Below, piece by piece: positions 3,290 through 19,832 of a DNA stretch of 20,874 nucleotides (positions within the stretch are counted from its first letter, which is position 1; every line of letters starts with the position of its first letter). This DNA is from a virus. The stretch covers positions 5,202-26,075 of IMG/VR virus record IMGVR_UViG_3300029448_000368; one strand, written 5' to 3'. Under the pieces are notes generated by a model. That model was not told where the DNA came from. It saw only the letters and a program-made list of their open reading frames with translations, and made no database searches. A program made the position numbers and the translations under genes.

Positions 3290-5892
3290 TATTTAAACTC
3301 ATCCAAATCAAATCTACAAGTAAATCTATATAAACCATCAGTACCAACTTCGTATTCTAAAGCGTCTTCTGACATTGTGACTCTTAAACTGAATGGATTC
3401 TTATAAAAACTCCTGCCAGCCGCTGTAATATTCATTCCTACAGCAAATCTTATTTTTGCTTCACCGTATTTGTTTGATGTTACATTGTCGTTAATAACAT
3501 GGCGTATGCTTCCGTTATTACTACTACTACTTGGTACAATTAAACATTCACCTCTTATAAAACAATTTGTATCGCTGGCTCTAAAACCTTCAAGTAAAAA
3601 TGTTTTTGTACCAGCAGTTATATCTTGCCTTAATCTTAACTGATGTGTATTAAGATTGCTGTTAGCAGTATCAGTTCTCTGCCAAATTAAATTACTTGTT
3701 AAACTTGAACCGCCTTGTTTTATAATAAAGAAAAAAGGTGTTGCTTGTCCTCTTGCCGCTTGATGTACTGCTTCAAATTGTCTAAAGTCATCATATACCA
3801 TCGGCGGATAACTTACCTCTAATTGATGCTTTATAACACCACTGCTTCTCACATACTTGGTACCATTTTGTGATAATGTTGTACTACTTGGAATGGTTTG
3901 TGTAATGTTTATACCATTAGGTGTTATATGTGTTGGCCAATTTTTTCTATTATCAAAACCATCTGTATCCCATTCATCATCTGTATCAAAATCATCTGGT
4001 GCGTATGTCGCTGGTGCTACATATTCATCTGCTTTTGCGTTAATAGGGAATACACCAACTTTTTCTATAACATGACTTGATGGTTTAGCTGGGCTTCCTG
4101 ATAATATAGCATTGTTATGCACATCAGTTGAACTTGTTAATCCAAGTCCTGCTAGTGTAAATAAACCTCTTTGCGGAAATACATCCAATTGACTTGTTCC
4201 ATCTATATAACCTTGCGTACTTAAATCAGGTGTAGCTGTTGGGGTTGCTACATATGTTGGTGTAAATGCACTTGTTGCACCTGGTCTCCAAAACTTTGTA
4301 AAGTCATATACTGCACCATTAACTGTTGCATTACTGCTGTTTTGATATTGATATTTTATTGTACCTGGGCTTCTTGTAACTGTGCTAAACAATTGATATA
4401 TCAACATATTAAAATTTCCATTATCATCGCCACCATCAGGTTTTGTTCCACTATACAATGTAGTTGCTTCACTTGCTAGTGGATGTGTTAATGGACTTAC
4501 TGGATTTAAACTTGTATCATTTACTTGTCCTGTAAAAAATAATCCACCAACATTTGTTCCACTTGCTGGTAATAAATCACCATCAAAATATTGAGCCGCA
4601 CTAGAATATGTTCCAGTTGATTCATTTCTATATGTCCAAAAATCAATAATATGAATCTGTCCTGCTACAACACCAGTAGCATTTGTTGCTGTTAAAAGCG
4701 AACTATCTCTGCCTGTTATTGTAGGATCTGTTAATATGTCAATAACTTTTGTTGTATCATTATACTTGTATCCAAAATATGCACTTTTAGTGACAGTAGT
4801 GCTAACATCATAAGCAGGAATAGCCTTACTTACTCCAGATCCTAGTGTGAGTTCAACTCTACAGAATCCACGATATATATTACTTGTATTTTCACTGCTT
4901 GTTTCCGGTGTCATATTTTGTGACTTAATACCAGTACGAACTGCGTTAAATCCTGCACTACTTAAATCTACTTGTATGGGAACTGTTGATCCACTACTTG
5001 CTATATTAATTTGTATTCCGTGTATAGTTGCTCCAGGATCATTATCGTGTAAATCAACACCTTGACCGCCTGTGAGTGTAAATGGTGTTGTTCTACCACT
5101 ATCGCTAAACAATTTATAACTGTTTGATCCACTTATCTTTTCTAAATATACCAGTGTTCCACTACTTGCACTACTCAATGTTCCTGCACCCATATTAGCG
5201 AATGTATCTGCTATTTGTAATACATCACCTGTACTAAATGTTTCTTGAAATATATCAAAGTGAGCTACTACACCATTATAACTGCCATCATCTAAAGCTG
5301 TAAAGAATACATCTGATTGTGCTTTAAAAAGGTTATCTACTTGTGCTAATCTTGTTAAACCAGAGTCTTCGTACAATATTACATTAAAACCATCAACAAC
5401 GCTTACATATGGTTTGATCATATTCAAATTTCTATGTGCGGCTCCACCCGAATCTGTATCAAAACCAAAAAACTCAATCTGATCACTGTTTGCAAAATTA
5501 TGTGCGTGTGTAAACTGCACTTTTACTTGTGGCATATTGTTGCTGTTCAATTCATAGTGTACACCAGCAATAGTTCTACCGTTTGGTTGAATGTTCCACT
5601 CAACTGCTGGATACTTTGCGAACTGATGAAAGGTTGGATTTGTATCATCGCCGTGACTATCAAAATAGTGTTTATATGCCGCGAATCCTGTGTTAATACT
5701 ACTTGTTGTTCTACTTAAATTATTTGTGTAATGTAAAGCACCTGTGTTGTGTGCTGTATATGTATATGTTCTTATATCATCAACTCTTTTATCGATACCA
5801 AAACTTGCATTGCCTGACCAATCTGCTGAATCAGTTGCGTATCCGTTGCCTGAGTTGTTAGGCCAATTCCATACATCATTTAAATCTGCCAT
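3289..5892 (-). CDS. Large distal-tail-like protein with repeat-bearing N-terminal region
   Basis: An 867-residue protein just after the tape measure gene, where the distal tail protein (lambda gpM or Dit-like) belongs. The last 220 residues look like a distal-tail module: SSGVIKHQLEVSYPP, then AARGQATPFFF near 712, GECLIVP near 781 and a beta-rich C-terminus ending in RFDLDEFK. The first 620 residues are much longer than in a usual distal tail protein. They carry two divergent copies of a roughly 65-residue beta module (about 120-185 and 207-275), recognisable by ILYEDSGLTR and KLFSDSGRTT. Extra beta modules may decorate the tail tip or bind surface sugars. No enzyme motif is visible. The distal-tail call is inferred from C-terminal pattern and gene order. 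Confidence 0.55.
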   Translation of the reverse strand: MADLNDVWNWPNNSGNGYATDSADWSGNASFGIDKRVDDIRTYTYTAHNTGALHYTNNLSRTTSSINTGFAAYKHYFDSHGDDTNPTFHQFAKYPAVEWNIQPNGRTIAGVHYELNSNNMPQVKVQFTHAHNFANSDQIEFFGFDTDSGGAAHRNLNMIKPYVSVVDGFNVILYEDSGLTRLAQVDNLFKAQSDVFFTALDDGSYNGVVAHFDIFQETFSTGDVLQIADTFANMGAGTLSSASSGTLVYLEKISGSNSYKLFSDSGRTTPFTLTGGQGVDLHDNDPGATIHGIQINIASSGSTVPIQVDLSSAGFNAVRTGIKSQNMTPETSSENTSNIYRGFCRVELTLGSGVSKAIPAYDVSTTVTKSAYFGYKYNDTTKVIDILTDPTITGRDSSLLTATNATGVVAGQIHIIDFWTYRNESTGTYSSAAQYFDGDLLPASGTNVGGLFFTGQVNDTSLNPVSPLTHPLASEATTLYSGTKPDGGDDNGNFNMLIYQLFSTVTRSPGTIKYQYQNSSNATVNGAVYDFTKFWRPGATSAFTPTYVATPTATPDLSTQGYIDGTSQLDVFPQRGLFTLAGLGLTSSTDVHNNAILSGSPAKPSSHVIEKVGVFPINAKADEYVAPATYAPDDFDTDDEWDTDGFDNRKNWPTHITPNGINITQTIPSSTTLSQNGTKYVRSSGVIKHQLEVSYPPMVYDDFRQFEAVHQAARGQATPFFFIIKQGGSSLTSNLIWQRTDTANSNLNTHQLRLRQDITAGTKTFLLEGFRASDTNCFIRGECLIVPSSSSNNGSIRHVINDNVTSNKYGEAKIRFAVGMNITAAGRSFYKNPFSLRVTMSEDALEYEVGTDGLYRFTCRFDLDEFK

Positions 5893-15628: not shown

Positions 15629-16855
15629 TTACCATGCACCATATCTTTTTACTGTTCTTTCCTCATATTCTTGCTTAATTGGATACAGATATGACACCAT
15701 ATAACTCCAACTATCATTAACACCATCATAACCCTTTTCGGCATCTTTCTTAGGAATGTTCGTATTTGCTTGGTACTCCCATTTACTAATAGCTGTGATT
15801 GTTTCTCTACAGGTAGGTTCTATGAATAGGTTTCTCTTACCACTTGCGTCACACAATAATCTATTACCGGCATTTATTCTATCTTTTACCAATGGATTTG
15901 CTTTGTTTACCATAACCTTAAATCCATACTGTTGCAATATAGTGTGATCTGTATTACCACCCGCACTTGTTTTTCTTTGCGCCCCGGCACTATCTGGGTA
16001 AATGAATATCATCTTATTTGGATACTTTTGTTTTATTGCTTGACACATTTCATCTGTGTTTGTATTACGCAACACTATTTCATCAACTATATGCAATCCT
16101 GTTTTATACTTTACAGCAATTACAGCCGTCATTTTTGATATGTTAAAGTCTAAACCAATATGTATGTGATTAGGAATCTCACCATCAAACTTTTCTATGT
16201 TATCTTTATCAAATGCATAAAATATAATATTTCCACTACTTTGCCAATTGGCTTCGTACTCTTGTTTAAATGTGGCCAAATCTAAATCTCTTCTTGCGGC
16301 TTCTATTTCTTCTTTGCTTATCTGTCCACCTTCTAGTGTTGTATATTGATACGCACTCCAATCTTCCAACTTGTGAGCTTCCATCCACATATCATAAAAC
16401 CAATTACCCATACCTTGTGGTGTACTAATAAACAACGCACCACCTTCACTATCCGATAGCGTGGGTCTCACTATATCTGTCCAAATTTTTCTATCGTAAA
16501 AGGCGCACTCATCTAAAACTGCGAAATCATATCGACTGCCACGAATACTAACCGCGGCATCAGCACTACGCAATGTGATTGTGCTTCCATTAACCAAATA
16601 CAATGTTAAATCACTTTCGTTAATCTTTTTAACCCATCTTCTCTTTACCAACTGTTCTCTTAAATCTTCCAATATGATATTCTTTGCTTGTCTATAGTTC
16701 AAGCTCATATACATAATCTTTTGATTTGGAAATCTTGCGGCACGAGCCATTTCCCATATTGCCAAATAAGACTTTCCAAAACGCCTTCCGCAACAAGCTA
16801 ATCTAAAGCGATTTTTATCATCAAATATCTTTTGTTGTGGCACACTCAACGGCAT
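15629..16855 (-). CDS. terL: Terminase large subunit
   Basis: A 408-residue ATPase-nuclease that pumps DNA into the prohead and cuts it. The ATPase part shows GRRFGKS (Walker A, 23-29), VLDE (Walker B, 113-116) and STP (coupling motif, 144-146). The RNase H-like nuclease part shows D236 in HIGLDFN, D288 in IYPDSAG, and the DGVND pair (377, 381) near the end. I chose the ATG at 16855: it overlaps the glycosyltransferase stop by one base (TAATG), as do several gene pairs here. The longer reading from 16903 needs a TTG start. Length fits the compact terminases of marine siphoviruses. No small subunit is recognisable before it. Confidence 0.93.
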   Translation of the reverse strand: MPLSVPQQKIFDDKNRFRLACCGRRFGKSYLAIWEMARAARFPNQKIMYMSLNYRQAKNIILEDLREQLVKRRWVKKINESDLTLYLVNGSTITLRSADAAVSIRGSRYDFAVLDECAFYDRKIWTDIVRPTLSDSEGGALFISTPQGMGNWFYDMWMEAHKLEDWSAYQYTTLEGGQISKEEIEAARRDLDLATFKQEYEANWQSSGNIIFYAFDKDNIEKFDGEIPNHIHIGLDFNISKMTAVIAVKYKTGLHIVDEIVLRNTNTDEMCQAIKQKYPNKMIFIYPDSAGAQRKTSAGGNTDHTILQQYGFKVMVNKANPLVKDRINAGNRLLCDASGKRNLFIEPTCRETITAISKWEYQANTNIPKKDAEKGYDGVNDSWSYMVSYLYPIKQEYEERTVKRYGAW

Positions 16856-17694
16856 TACTTTTTGTACTCCGCTCTTAATATCTTGGGTGCTGTTTTTCGC
16901 CAATCAACTCTGTGATGTAATCGTTCGTGTTTCTTACCCAATACTGCTACTCGTACTCCACTAGGGTGCATCATAACACTAAAGAAGCTCTTAACATATG
17001 TACCTGTATCTAAATATAACTCTGTTAAACCACCCTCATTAGACTGCGTTAGCTTCTGTATAATGCTGGTTTTCATTTGTGTTAGCATTATATCGCCTTT
17101 GTGACCCAATCGTACATATGCGTTAACATCTTCATTTGTTCTTCCACTAAACTTAAATGGTCTATCTGTGGCACATACGAAACTGTTCATTGCTTTACGC
17201 TTTGGTCTGTCCCATCCACCTCCACCTTGATAATCACCACCTTGACCCATTGCCAATGTGAGTACTGGTGTGCTTTCAACGAACTCAACCATTGCTGTGA
17301 ATAATCTATCCATATTTGTTAATTGTATACTACGGCTTCTATTGTTATGTTCAGCATTTGTGATATGCTGTATACTACTATAATCATCATCCAATACCAT
17401 AAAGTATTTTAATCCCAACTCTTTGGCTATTGTCCAACACCAATTTCGTGCGAATACAACACCACGCTGATGTGTTTCATTATCCATTGTGTCTGTGATT
17501 TCTGCGGCCTTTAACTTATCAAATACATATACTGAGTCACCATACAATCTCTTGTATTCATCTACAGTATCATCTTGATCATCAACTATGTAAACAATCC
17601 GGCCTGTGTACTTAAATCTATCCAACATACGCTTGGTGTAAATACGGTCTGGTCGCTTGTGAGTTAATATGAATACTGCGAAATCATCACGCAT
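16855..17694 (-). CDS. Glycosyltransferase, TET-associated (TAGT)-like, possible DNA-base glycosyltransferase
   Basis: A 279-residue GT-A type glycosyltransferase. It opens with FAVFILTHKRPD (5-16), then GRIVYIVDDQDD (31-42). RGVVFARNWCWTIAKELGLK (78-97) leads into YFMVLDDDYSS (98-107) with the metal-binding DDD at 102-104, and GRTNEDVNAYVRLG (184-197) holds the acidic pair E188-D189. GTYVKSFFSVMMHPSG (231-246) and HHRVDW (260-265) complete a pattern I know from a conserved phage family linked by Iyer and co-workers to glycosylation of hypermodified DNA bases. I chose the ATG at 17694, which overlaps the ParB-like stop by eight bases. No TET/JBP oxygenase is in the window, so the acceptor is unknown. 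Family call is good; DNA as substrate is inference. Confidence 0.65.
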   Translation of the reverse strand: MRDDFAVFILTHKRPDRIYTKRMLDRFKYTGRIVYIVDDQDDTVDEYKRLYGDSVYVFDKLKAAEITDTMDNETHQRGVVFARNWCWTIAKELGLKYFMVLDDDYSSIQHITNAEHNNRSRSIQLTNMDRLFTAMVEFVESTPVLTLAMGQGGDYQGGGGWDRPKRKAMNSFVCATDRPFKFSGRTNEDVNAYVRLGHKGDIMLTQMKTSIIQKLTQSNEGGLTELYLDTGTYVKSFFSVMMHPSGVRVAVLGKKHERLHHRVDWRKTAPKILRAEYKK

Positions 17695-18448
17695 TGTTAT
17701 CAGCACTTTCCAAGTATATGTCAGCAATATCATCTCTTAATTTAGTATAACCAAGCTCTATTGCTCTATCAAAATCAATTATAACCAACGCACTATCTTC
17801 AAATAGCTTTTGTGTATCTTTATCAGCATGGGCATAGTATTCAGCTATTCTCCCATAATCGAACTCAATATGTCTATAAGCCGCAAGGCTTAAAAATTTT
17901 TTTATATCTGCTGGTAATTCACTCTTCTCTATGTTATCCAACAAGTCTTGAGCTCTGTGATCATCATACAAGTGATCCAACTCTGGCTTATCACCCTTGG
18001 GCTCATACAATGGCGTATCTATCTTCTTTGTGTATGTATCGTCTGACAATTTCAGCATCTTATCAAGCTCTTCACTCTTAAAACCTGTGAGCTCAATATC
18101 ACCTGTGAGTTCTTTCAAATCAGCCAATTCTTCTGTTAATAAATCTTCATCCCAACCTGCTAACTCATTTAACTTGTTGTCAGCTATTCTATATGCTCGT
18201 ACTTTTTCATCACTTATACCGTCCGGCATCTCTAATACTGGTACCTCGGTTAACTGCAACTCTTTGCTGGCTTTCCATCGTGTATGTCCTACTACGATAA
18301 CATCATCTTTATCCACTACTATGGGTTGATTAAAGCCAAACTCTTGAATACTGTCAGCTACTCTTTTTACTGCTTTGGTGTTTTTTCTTGGATTTTTATT
18401 ATATGGCGTCAACTCATCTGGGTGTCGCCACACTATTTCTTTATGCAT
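17687..18448 (-). CDS. ParB-like N-terminal domain protein, partner of the DNA methyltransferase
   Basis: A 253-residue protein. Residues 1-130 form a ParB-like domain: ELTPYNKNPRKN (12-23), SIQEFGFNQPIVVD (33-46), VVGHTRWKA (52-60) and IADNKLNELAGWDEDLL (88-104), then IELTGFKSEELDKML. This version is often found fused to or next to DNA methylases in phages and prophages. The C-terminal part (182-235) with FLSLAAYRHIEFDY, RIAEYYAHA and EDSALVIIDF is a second conserved phage block of unknown role. The gene overlaps the methyltransferase by 16 bases and the glycosyltransferase by eight. An AAAGGA site six bases before the ATG lies in one copy of the 22-base direct repeat. A role in guiding or assisting DNA modification is inferred from context; a classic chromosome-partition role is unlikely without ParA. 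Confidence 0.8.
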   Translation of the reverse strand: MHKEIVWRHPDELTPYNKNPRKNTKAVKRVADSIQEFGFNQPIVVDKDDVIVVGHTRWKASKELQLTEVPVLEMPDGISDEKVRAYRIADNKLNELAGWDEDLLTEELADLKELTGDIELTGFKSEELDKMLKLSDDTYTKKIDTPLYEPKGDKPELDHLYDDHRAQDLLDNIEKSELPADIKKFLSLAAYRHIEFDYGRIAEYYAHADKDTQKLFEDSALVIIDFDRAIELGYTKLRDDIADIYLESADNNA

Positions 18449-19773
18449 AGGGGGTCCTTTCTTGTATTATTTATATCATCAAATAATTGATCAAAAATAT
18501 TATTAGGTTGTATTCTTGTATACCAAGCCTCTATTCTTTTGTTAGCTATTGCTACATAATTAGGGTCTAATTCACACCCTGTAAAGCACATATCCGCCTC
18601 TACAGCCGCCATTCCTGTGCTTCCGCTTCCAGTAAATGGATCCAATACTTTACCACCCGGTGGAGTGACTAACTGTATAAGATATTTCATTAATGCTACT
18701 GGTTTTACTGTAGGATGATTGTTTCCTAAATTGTGCGTAGCAGGATCACTTGTGAATGTTTGCACATTACCATTCTTATCTGTTAGCCCTGTTTGTATTT
18801 TACCTACTGCGTTGCCTTTTGAATAGTTGTCTTTCATACGCCCCAATGTACCTGTTTGTGTATAACCTGGTGTGCCTGGTGCATATACACCATCACCAAT
18901 GTTATTACCTGTTGCTATATGTGCCAAAGGATCTTTGTTTTTTCTCACTAGATAGTTTCCATTTTTTGCAATAAAATCATCACCACCCGGGCCACACACT
19001 CTGTCAGAAACACTTTCAAAACCACAATGTCTTTCTTCTCTGCTTACTTTTGGACAATAGAAATACTTTTGATAGTCTGTGATTTCACCCATAACATTGC
19101 TTGGATATCTACCTTGTAGCCTGTTATCAACATCTCTATCTTTGTTTATATCAGCATCCTTGTCTTTTATATAATCAACACCTTTAGCATCTGCGTGTGC
19201 GTTATTAAATACTGCTTTACTGCCGGTACTATTAGGATATTTCTTCATCCATTTTACATAAGCTTCTGGGTTGTCATCTTTGCCCCATTCAACTCTACTT
19301 ACATCTATATTAAGAGCTCCTGTTCCGTGTGCTAACATATTATCTACGGTTGCTCCTTTAAAAGGTTTTCTTGCCATTACAATAGGTTCATGTCCTGGCT
19401 TTAGGGCTGTTTTCCAACCACTCCATTCATTGTCTATACCACGCTTGTCCAATGCTTTACCAATGTCTTGTGCTTTGGGAAAGCCACTTGCATATATCCA
19501 CATCAATTGATCTCTTATTTCAAAACCAACTATTTCTATATTTGTTGCTAAATGATGATATGTTCTTGCCGCACTAAAAGCCAATAAATGTCCACCTGGC
19601 TTTAACACTCTGTAGCACTCTTGCCAAGTCTCTACTGCACCTGTGTTGCTGTCCCAATCTTTACCAAGGAACTCTATACCATATGGTGGATCTGTGACGA
19701 TACTGTCAAAGTAATTATCAGGATAAGATTTTAGGATGTCCTGATTCATCCCTTGTTTAACTGTAAATTGCAT
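18433..19773 (-). CDS. DNA methyltransferase, N4-cytosine/N6-adenine, beta class
   Basis: A 446-residue methyltransferase. DPPY (28-31, motif IV) precedes the S-adenosylmethionine-binding DPFTGSGSTG (378-387, motif I), which is the beta-class order. Between them are GHEPIVMARKP, GALNIDVSRVEWG, GRYPSNVMGE, YFYCPKVSREER and HPTVKP (353-358), all typical of the long phage/prophage type. A charged Asp/Lys-rich insert sits at about 200-225. The DPPY form favours adenine N6 but cytosine N4 cannot be excluded; the target site cannot be read from sequence. An AAAGGA site precedes the ATG. The last twelve residues are encoded by the 22-base repeat shared with the region upstream of the gene. No restriction enzyme lies nearby, so it is a solitary methyltransferase. 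Confidence 0.9.
   Translation of the reverse strand: MQFTVKQGMNQDILKSYPDNYFDSIVTDPPYGIEFLGKDWDSNTGAVETWQECYRVLKPGGHLLAFSAARTYHHLATNIEIVGFEIRDQLMWIYASGFPKAQDIGKALDKRGIDNEWSGWKTALKPGHEPIVMARKPFKGATVDNMLAHGTGALNIDVSRVEWGKDDNPEAYVKWMKKYPNSTGSKAVFNNAHADAKGVDYIKDKDADINKDRDVDNRLQGRYPSNVMGEITDYQKYFYCPKVSREERHCGFESVSDRVCGPGGDDFIAKNGNYLVRKNKDPLAHIATGNNIGDGVYAPGTPGYTQTGTLGRMKDNYSKGNAVGKIQTGLTDKNGNVQTFTSDPATHNLGNNHPTVKPVALMKYLIQLVTPPGGKVLDPFTGSGSTGMAAVEADMCFTGCELDPNYVAIANKRIEAWYTRIQPNNIFDQLFDDINNTRKDPLCIKK
18449..18470. repeat. Direct repeat, copy A (downstream side of methyltransferase)
   Basis: A 22-base sequence beginning AGGGGGTCCTTTCTTG matches copy B at 19811-19832 with one difference (C/T at position 9). 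On the minus strand it encodes the end of the methyltransferase and also supplies the ribosome binding site of the ParB-like gene. Confidence 0.8.
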
Positions 19774-19810: not shown

Positions 19811-19832
19811 AGGGGGTCTTTTCTTGTATTAT
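19811..19832. repeat. Direct repeat, copy B (upstream side of methyltransferase)
   Basis: This matches copy A in 21 of 22 bases, 1362 bases away. It overlaps the stop codon of the 88-residue gene and lies 38 bases before the methyltransferase ATG. The change makes AAAAGA of the AAAGGA ribosome site, so this copy has lost that function. Confidence 0.8.

Follow-up and report, generated by a model that had tools for sequence, protein, structure and literature searches.

The window analyzed here is a stretch of 20,874 nucleotides (bases 5202-26075) from the 26,075-base record IMGVR_UViG_3300029448_000368, a virus fragment of ~26 kb. It contains mostly late genes, among them four overlapping genes on the minus strand that encode a methyltransferase, a ParB-like protein, a glycosyltransferase of the TAGT family and the terminase large subunit (terL; Table 1). 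An earlier reading of the sequence alone (the sequence-only reading) had joined the first three into one DNA-modification cassette leading into the terminase, and the overlaps that it gave for the four genes (16, 8 and 1 bases) are exact by coordinates. The TAGT gene could also begin further upstream, at an in-frame ATG at 17733. The overlap of the ParB-like and TAGT genes recurs in nearly all of ~108 other loci, which is more than chance.

At this locus the conserved unit consists of TAGT (PF20691) and a partner domain dedicated to it, which in the window follows a ParB_N head in the same protein. When the ParB-like protein is split, the part that stays constant is its C-terminal domain, for which there is no Pfam family. 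Across ~250 loci, TAGT adjoins 246 of 248 partner domains, the two exceptions being contig ends, and all 80 loci fetched by the partner domain alone contain TAGT. The ParB-like gene ends within the TAGT start in Escherichia coli prophages, in Lactobacillus, Nocardia, Porphyromonas, Bacteroides and Clostridia, and in the archaeal virus HHTV-2; in Vibrio phage pv27 the partner domain alone forms a separate gene beside TAGT (43% identity). The domain is modeled confidently as a small helical domain, and the PDB matches listed for it do not explain the fold. The peptide that precedes it, YTxK[IV]xxPxYEP, is near-invariant, yet modeled with low confidence.

Membership of the glycosyltransferase in the TAGT family, as the sequence-only reading had it, is supported, with a PF20691 score of 126 bits against the curated Pfam cut-off of 27.5. 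Our pattern scans rest on a tight alignment, a wider first alignment being too diverse; the DDD motif is invariant (48/48), as are E188-D189 and H261. The model (pTM 0.87) has a GT-A fold, in which DDD provides the DxD-type metal-binding motif. The nearest solved structures, AvpGT (a nucleoside-binding glycosyltransferase), glycogenin and SunS, lie at TM ~0.4, a resemblance too generic for naming a substrate, and a sequence search of solved structures with TAGT returned no match. Tandem TAGT genes occur in three loci (two copies in L020, L021 and L264, in the last with a partner domain each), where possibly two sugars are added. The phrog_842 label, beta-glucosyl-HMC-alpha-glucosyltransferase, has been copied onto phages with no sign of hydroxymethylcytosine (HMC, hmC) and is probably an annotation error.

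The partner domain occurs with two kinds of head: ParB_N fusions account for 170 cases, complete stand-alone forms for 69. The fused form typically lies before the terminase. In 69 loci, mostly of this form, the next large gene is mostly a terminase (profile matches to Terminase_6N in 25, Terminase_3 in 17, Terminase_2 in 13, GpA in 9 and TerL_ATPase in 6, with some overlap), which supports the link to terminase drawn in the sequence-only reading. The stand-alone form is found mostly among replication genes; the larger genes around 32 such loci include those for helicases, nucleases, polymerases and clamps, with only ~2 terminases. One of these neighborhoods includes a clamp loader (L246), another has the order DNA polymerase A, partner, TAGT, DnaN (L266), and in a third DnaN lies upstream of the pair (L201).

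Stand-alone partners begin with peptides such as MKQTNLF, MKQYDLF, MFKQPTLDIF and MTIQQKLDIF, and QxxLF is the published consensus for binding to the bacterial sliding clamp (PMC12309361). With L or M allowed at the fourth place, QxxLF or QxxLxxF is found in 35 of 43 unique stand-alone tails, against 0.8 expected from shuffled tails, a count that overstates independence because these tails are kin by descent; none of 146 fused proteins contains it. On the TAGT tree, head type changes repeatedly and the motif recurs in several distinct branches, a few assignments of head type (e.g., L022, L136) being uncertain. The operon at L201:81-3504 encodes a phage DnaN, a 463-residue protein with the start MKLQPQLF and an SCPPYY motif, a cysteine-rich 278-residue protein (GCASGMENEAGGCYNDCYAAK) and then partner and TAGT; the two middle proteins, neither of which matches a Pfam family, could make an acceptor. 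Several stand-alone partners (L098:6601-7005, L078:4304-4711, L112:7459-7878) give weak matches, always in the same region, to Phage_Gene47 (PF23887; E 0.005-0.1), perhaps a distant relative by sequence. In several stand-alone loci, a class I S-adenosylmethionine (SAM)-dependent methyltransferase (Methyltransf_23/12-like) is encoded either between the two genes of the pair or immediately ahead of the partner gene, and it might methylate the sugar.

The head of the window's ParB-like protein falls within the ParB_N fold, and its model resembles structures of ParB, Noc, KorB, SerK and sulfiredoxin. The TAGT-partner domain stands in place of the helix-turn-helix (HTH) parS-binding domain, and no HTH is recognized in the model. 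Related heads are encoded beside other DNA-modification genes. The gene order is ParB, Tet_JBP, kinase, terminase in Mycobacterium phage Nigel; ParB, Tet_JBP, amino-acid:DNA transferase (ADDT) and then terminase in Phelemich and MossRose; ParB, DpdA, QueC/D/E, FolE, terminase, as annotated, in the Rosebush-type phage FrenchFry and in Gordonia phage Sour; and ParB, a phosphoadenosine phosphosulfate (PAPS) reductase-like gene, terminase in Heathcliff. The Tet_JBP matches in these actinobacterial phages fall below the Pfam cut-off; for the Cooper homolog, the identification comes from the literature (PMC12730594). In Rosebush DNA, dPreQ0 has been measured at ~28% of G (PMC6884629). Of the seven first genes tested, all match the ParB_N profile of the window's family, whereas the partner-domain profile picks out a single one, that of Nocardia phage NTR1, which is linked to TAGT; the database was small, which makes the E-values optimistic. 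By sequence, then, the ParB_N head appears to be common to several DNA-modification enzymes, with a tail that matches the enzyme. Serratia phage Eta, for which modified guanine was once claimed, was considered as a possible counter-example and set aside as not informative, its ParB having no TAGT beside it. In Heathcliff (Pipefishvirus; L359:1-2717) two ParB genes flank the PAPS-reductase-like gene before the terminase, and a sulfur-based DNA modification is possible. At L115:776-1744, a protein that matches Tet_JBP belongs to PHROG 6059, whose label, queuine tRNA-ribosyltransferase, is copied in the records and is probably an annotation error.

We thus observe near-obligate pairing, two head types, a clamp motif, a characteristic placement and related ParB_N heads beside other DNA-modification enzymes. 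We put at roughly 0.62 the probability that the window carries a two-component DNA glycosylation module, in which TAGT acts with a partner and ParB_N or the sliding clamp provides the targeting. TAGT, with its intact DDD, ED and His motifs, would transfer a sugar from a nucleotide-sugar and would bind the dedicated partner domain, probably via the YTxK[IV]xxPxYEP peptide; the partner would carry it to phage DNA, using either of two interchangeable heads. A ParB_N head, with genes before the terminase, would have DNA modified late, near packaging, and TAGT with its ParB-headed partner probably decorates viral DNA just before it is packaged. An N-terminal sliding-clamp-binding peptide, with genes among those for replication, would have DNA modified behind the fork. 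The purpose may be protection against host nucleases.

Several findings weigh against such a module. DNA is the likely substrate by gene association, mainly because related ParB_N heads precede 7-deazaguanine, TET/JBP and PAPS-reductase genes before the terminase. The ParB-like protein has GHTR where ParB has the CTP-binding motif GERR, the tails with the clamp motif share descent, and pairwise comparison of the window's TAGT with the characterized T2 enzyme gives no significant similarity (E 0.73), the family profile being common to both. The fold comparison that the sequence-only reading had suggested yielded generic GT-A enzymes only, a fold that also acts on proteins, glycans and small molecules; glycogenin and SunS are among the PDB neighbors. 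As had been noted from the window, no oxygenase is in view: TET/JBP is absent from the window's own record, which means little because the record has only 26,075 bases, and Tet_JBP was found in 0 of 73 further records, including six complete phages or prophages with the pair, by a search that detected the positive control, Nigel. Thymidylate synthase/dCMP-hydroxymethylase was found in 0 of 34 smaller related records (the T4 gp42 control was detected) and C5-methylase in 2 of 36. T4-like homologs were considered as a sign of an hmC acceptor and rejected, the large phages pv27 and Ah1 having thymidylate synthase (td) only and no hydroxymethylase. Therefore, the sugar would go to canonical DNA, to an acceptor made by an unrecognized enzyme, or to a protein.

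Direct glycosylation by TAGT and its partner of an ordinary unmodified base (or other canonical part of DNA), with no prior hydroxymethylation, is a proposal that we make tentatively. If true, phage DNA glycosyltransferases would gain a chemistry that is not known among them, directed by ParB_N or the sliding clamp and distributed across phages of bacteria and archaea, E. coli prophages among them. Somewhat doubtful is a conventional glycosyltransferase of hydroxymethyl-bases, a sub-version of the DNA glycosylation module whose estimated probability overlaps that of the module by design; the hydroxylated base would come from a host enzyme or from a phage enzyme too divergent to be recognized. 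In keeping with this, the characterized T2 member overlaps hydroxymethylase gene 42 and acts on glucosyl-hmC (PMC13216743). A divergent TET can be missed because mycobacteriophage TET proteins score just 20-28 bits with PF12851. However, neither TET nor hydroxymethylase turned up in small, complete genomes that carry the pair (c5, 32 kb; jlb1, 38 kb; coliphage 673R7, 38 kb), in searches that detected both controls, pv27 and Ah1 have the synthase only, and we know of no hydroxylated base common to E. coli, Lactobacillus and Haloarcula. We consider it unlikely that the glycosyltransferase modifies a protein, be it the partner, ParB_N, terminase, clamp or a capsid protein, with the invariant YT...Y peptide as a possible acceptor comparable to the self-tyrosine of glycogenin. 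The fold neighbors glycogenin and SunS (a peptide S-glycosyltransferase), a peptide that is near-invariant yet of low confidence in the model, and the lack of an encoded acceptor-making DNA enzyme would fit a protein acceptor, as would the RefSeq name of the E. coli protein, GREB1-related, GREB1 itself having a protein as its substrate. Such an acceptor would leave unexplained the clamp motifs, the polymerase-clamp neighborhoods and the ParB_N heads beside established DNA-modification genes.

The sequence-only reading had the methyltransferase, ParB-like protein and TAGT form one route starting from methylated bases. The tight gene overlaps favor this, as do related N6/N4 methyltransferases near two TAGT loci (L074, L238), which make the association occasional; nearly all ParB-TAGT loci have no methyltransferase beside the pair, and we regard a single route as very improbable. 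Rather, the methyltransferase appears from sequence comparison to be a separate gene and a recent insert, because it is flanked by a 22-nucleotide direct repeat (21/22 identical; 19-nucleotide core, 0 expected), because relatives of the locus lack it, and because TAGT and the partner domain are both missing from the flanks examined in all 80 of its own relatives. In three viral contigs the methyltransferase is missing and the repeat occurs once, immediately ahead of ParB; two of these contigs (L274, L275) continue with partner, TAGT and terL, with the same 1-base overlap. The order of its motifs, DPPY before FTGSGSTG, is that of the beta class, and because it is by motif an amino-methyltransferase, its product would not offer the hydroxyl used by known phage DNA glycosyltransferases. 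On these grounds the methyltransferase was rejected as a third component and as a pathway step, and the DNA-modification reading is retained for TAGT and the ParB-like protein. It is extremely improbable that the ParB-like protein maintains a plasmid-like prophage by partition, with TAGT as a passenger: the ParB_N homology and the PHROGs label "ParB-like partition protein" point that way, but the coupling to TAGT holds across hosts, the protein's model has no recognized HTH region, and the clamp peptide replaces ParB_N in most of the 69 stand-alone loci.

Table 1. Features of the TAGT locus in the window and, in the last row, a gene of related loci
Feature	Position	Strand	Evidence or remark
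terL, terminase large subunit	15629-16855	-	PF03237; first base shared with the end of the TAGT stop codon
TAGT-family GT-A glycosyltransferase, 279 aa from an internal ATG	16855-17694	-	PF20691 2.2e-36; phrog_842 4.8e-67; GT-A fold
DDD motif of TAGT (D102-D104)	17383-17391	-	Alignment, 48/48
ParB-like targeting/partner protein (putative), 253 aa	17687-18448	-	PF02195 (ParB_N) 2.4e-8
TAGT-partner domain of the ParB-like protein, aa 139-241	17726-18034	-	No Pfam family
ParB_N head of the ParB-like protein, aa 1-132	18053-18448	-	ParB/Noc/KorB CTPase, SerK, sulfiredoxin fold
Beta-class N6/N4 DNA methyltransferase, 446 aa	18433-19773	-	PF01555 (N6_N4_Mtase) 8e-32; judged a recent insert, outside the module
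22-nucleotide direct repeat, copy immediately upstream of the ParB ATG	18449-18470	-	Copy kept in methyltransferase-less relatives
22-nucleotide direct repeat, second copy, upstream of the methyltransferase	19811-19832	-	21/22 identical
Class I SAM-methyltransferase, examples	L080:6244-7011; L078:4701-5468; L027:122-967		

At the low edge of the window (L008), near base 5200 of the record, translation shows runs of XXXX, a short masked or ambiguous stretch.

Known systems resemble the module in part. The beta-glucosyl-HMC-alpha-glucosyltransferase of T2 and T6 belongs to the same Pfam family (PF20691), is phage-encoded and, in the T-even case, adds sugar to DNA; the T2 gene, however, overlaps that of the dCMP hydroxymethylase and its enzyme needs glucosyl-hmC, whereas the window has a partner domain and no hydroxymethylase. 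Phage pathways that combine TET/JBP, a C5-methylase and a glycosyltransferase (Iyer 2013 and Burke 2021, as cited in PMC12730594) gave the TAGT family its name; the TAGT-pair records tested have no TET and almost no C5-methylase. In the Rosebush 7-deazaguanine system (PMC6884629), a related ParB_N protein likewise precedes DNA-modification genes and then terminase, but DpdA exchanges the base rather than glycosylating it, and ParB of the Rosebush type has no TAGT-partner domain. The T4 alpha-glucosyltransferase, which binds the clamp gp45 (PMC13216743), is a DNA glucosyltransferase tied to a sliding clamp; unlike TAGT, it has a GT-B fold and acts on hmC, and in the window's family recruitment would be via a separate partner protein. 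ParB_N-DNA methyltransferase fusions (phrog_498) carry the same kind of head (1e-42 to 1e-51) on a DNA-modifying enzyme, which differs in being a methyltransferase within the same chain.

In a 2026 study, 288 of 753 phage genomes had a solitary TAGT, and new transferases were suggested, with ParB unmentioned (PMC13216743); these phages, left unexplained there, gain a defined protein pair. In the literature covered, outside of which lie the founding paper on TAGT (Iyer 2013) and Burke 2021, we found no paper that treats the pair, its partner domain or the form with the clamp motif; within that coverage the word undescribed, used by the sequence-only reading for its candidate system, seems fair. 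The arrangement suggests a general layout in which exchangeable DNA-modification enzymes are set on ParB_N heads ahead of terminase, and the module opens a way to new reagents for DNA glycosylation and to new anti-restriction chemistry. At least 80% of the ParB-TAGT DNA is present in 885 of 5,426 complete E. coli genomes (~16%), and the predicted DNA modification may be present in prophages of about one in six. The E. coli pair lies in a prophage with recE/recT, racC and kil genes, which we take from these genes to be of the Rac family. The K-12 remnant retains only 254 matching bases, in a truncated ynaK.

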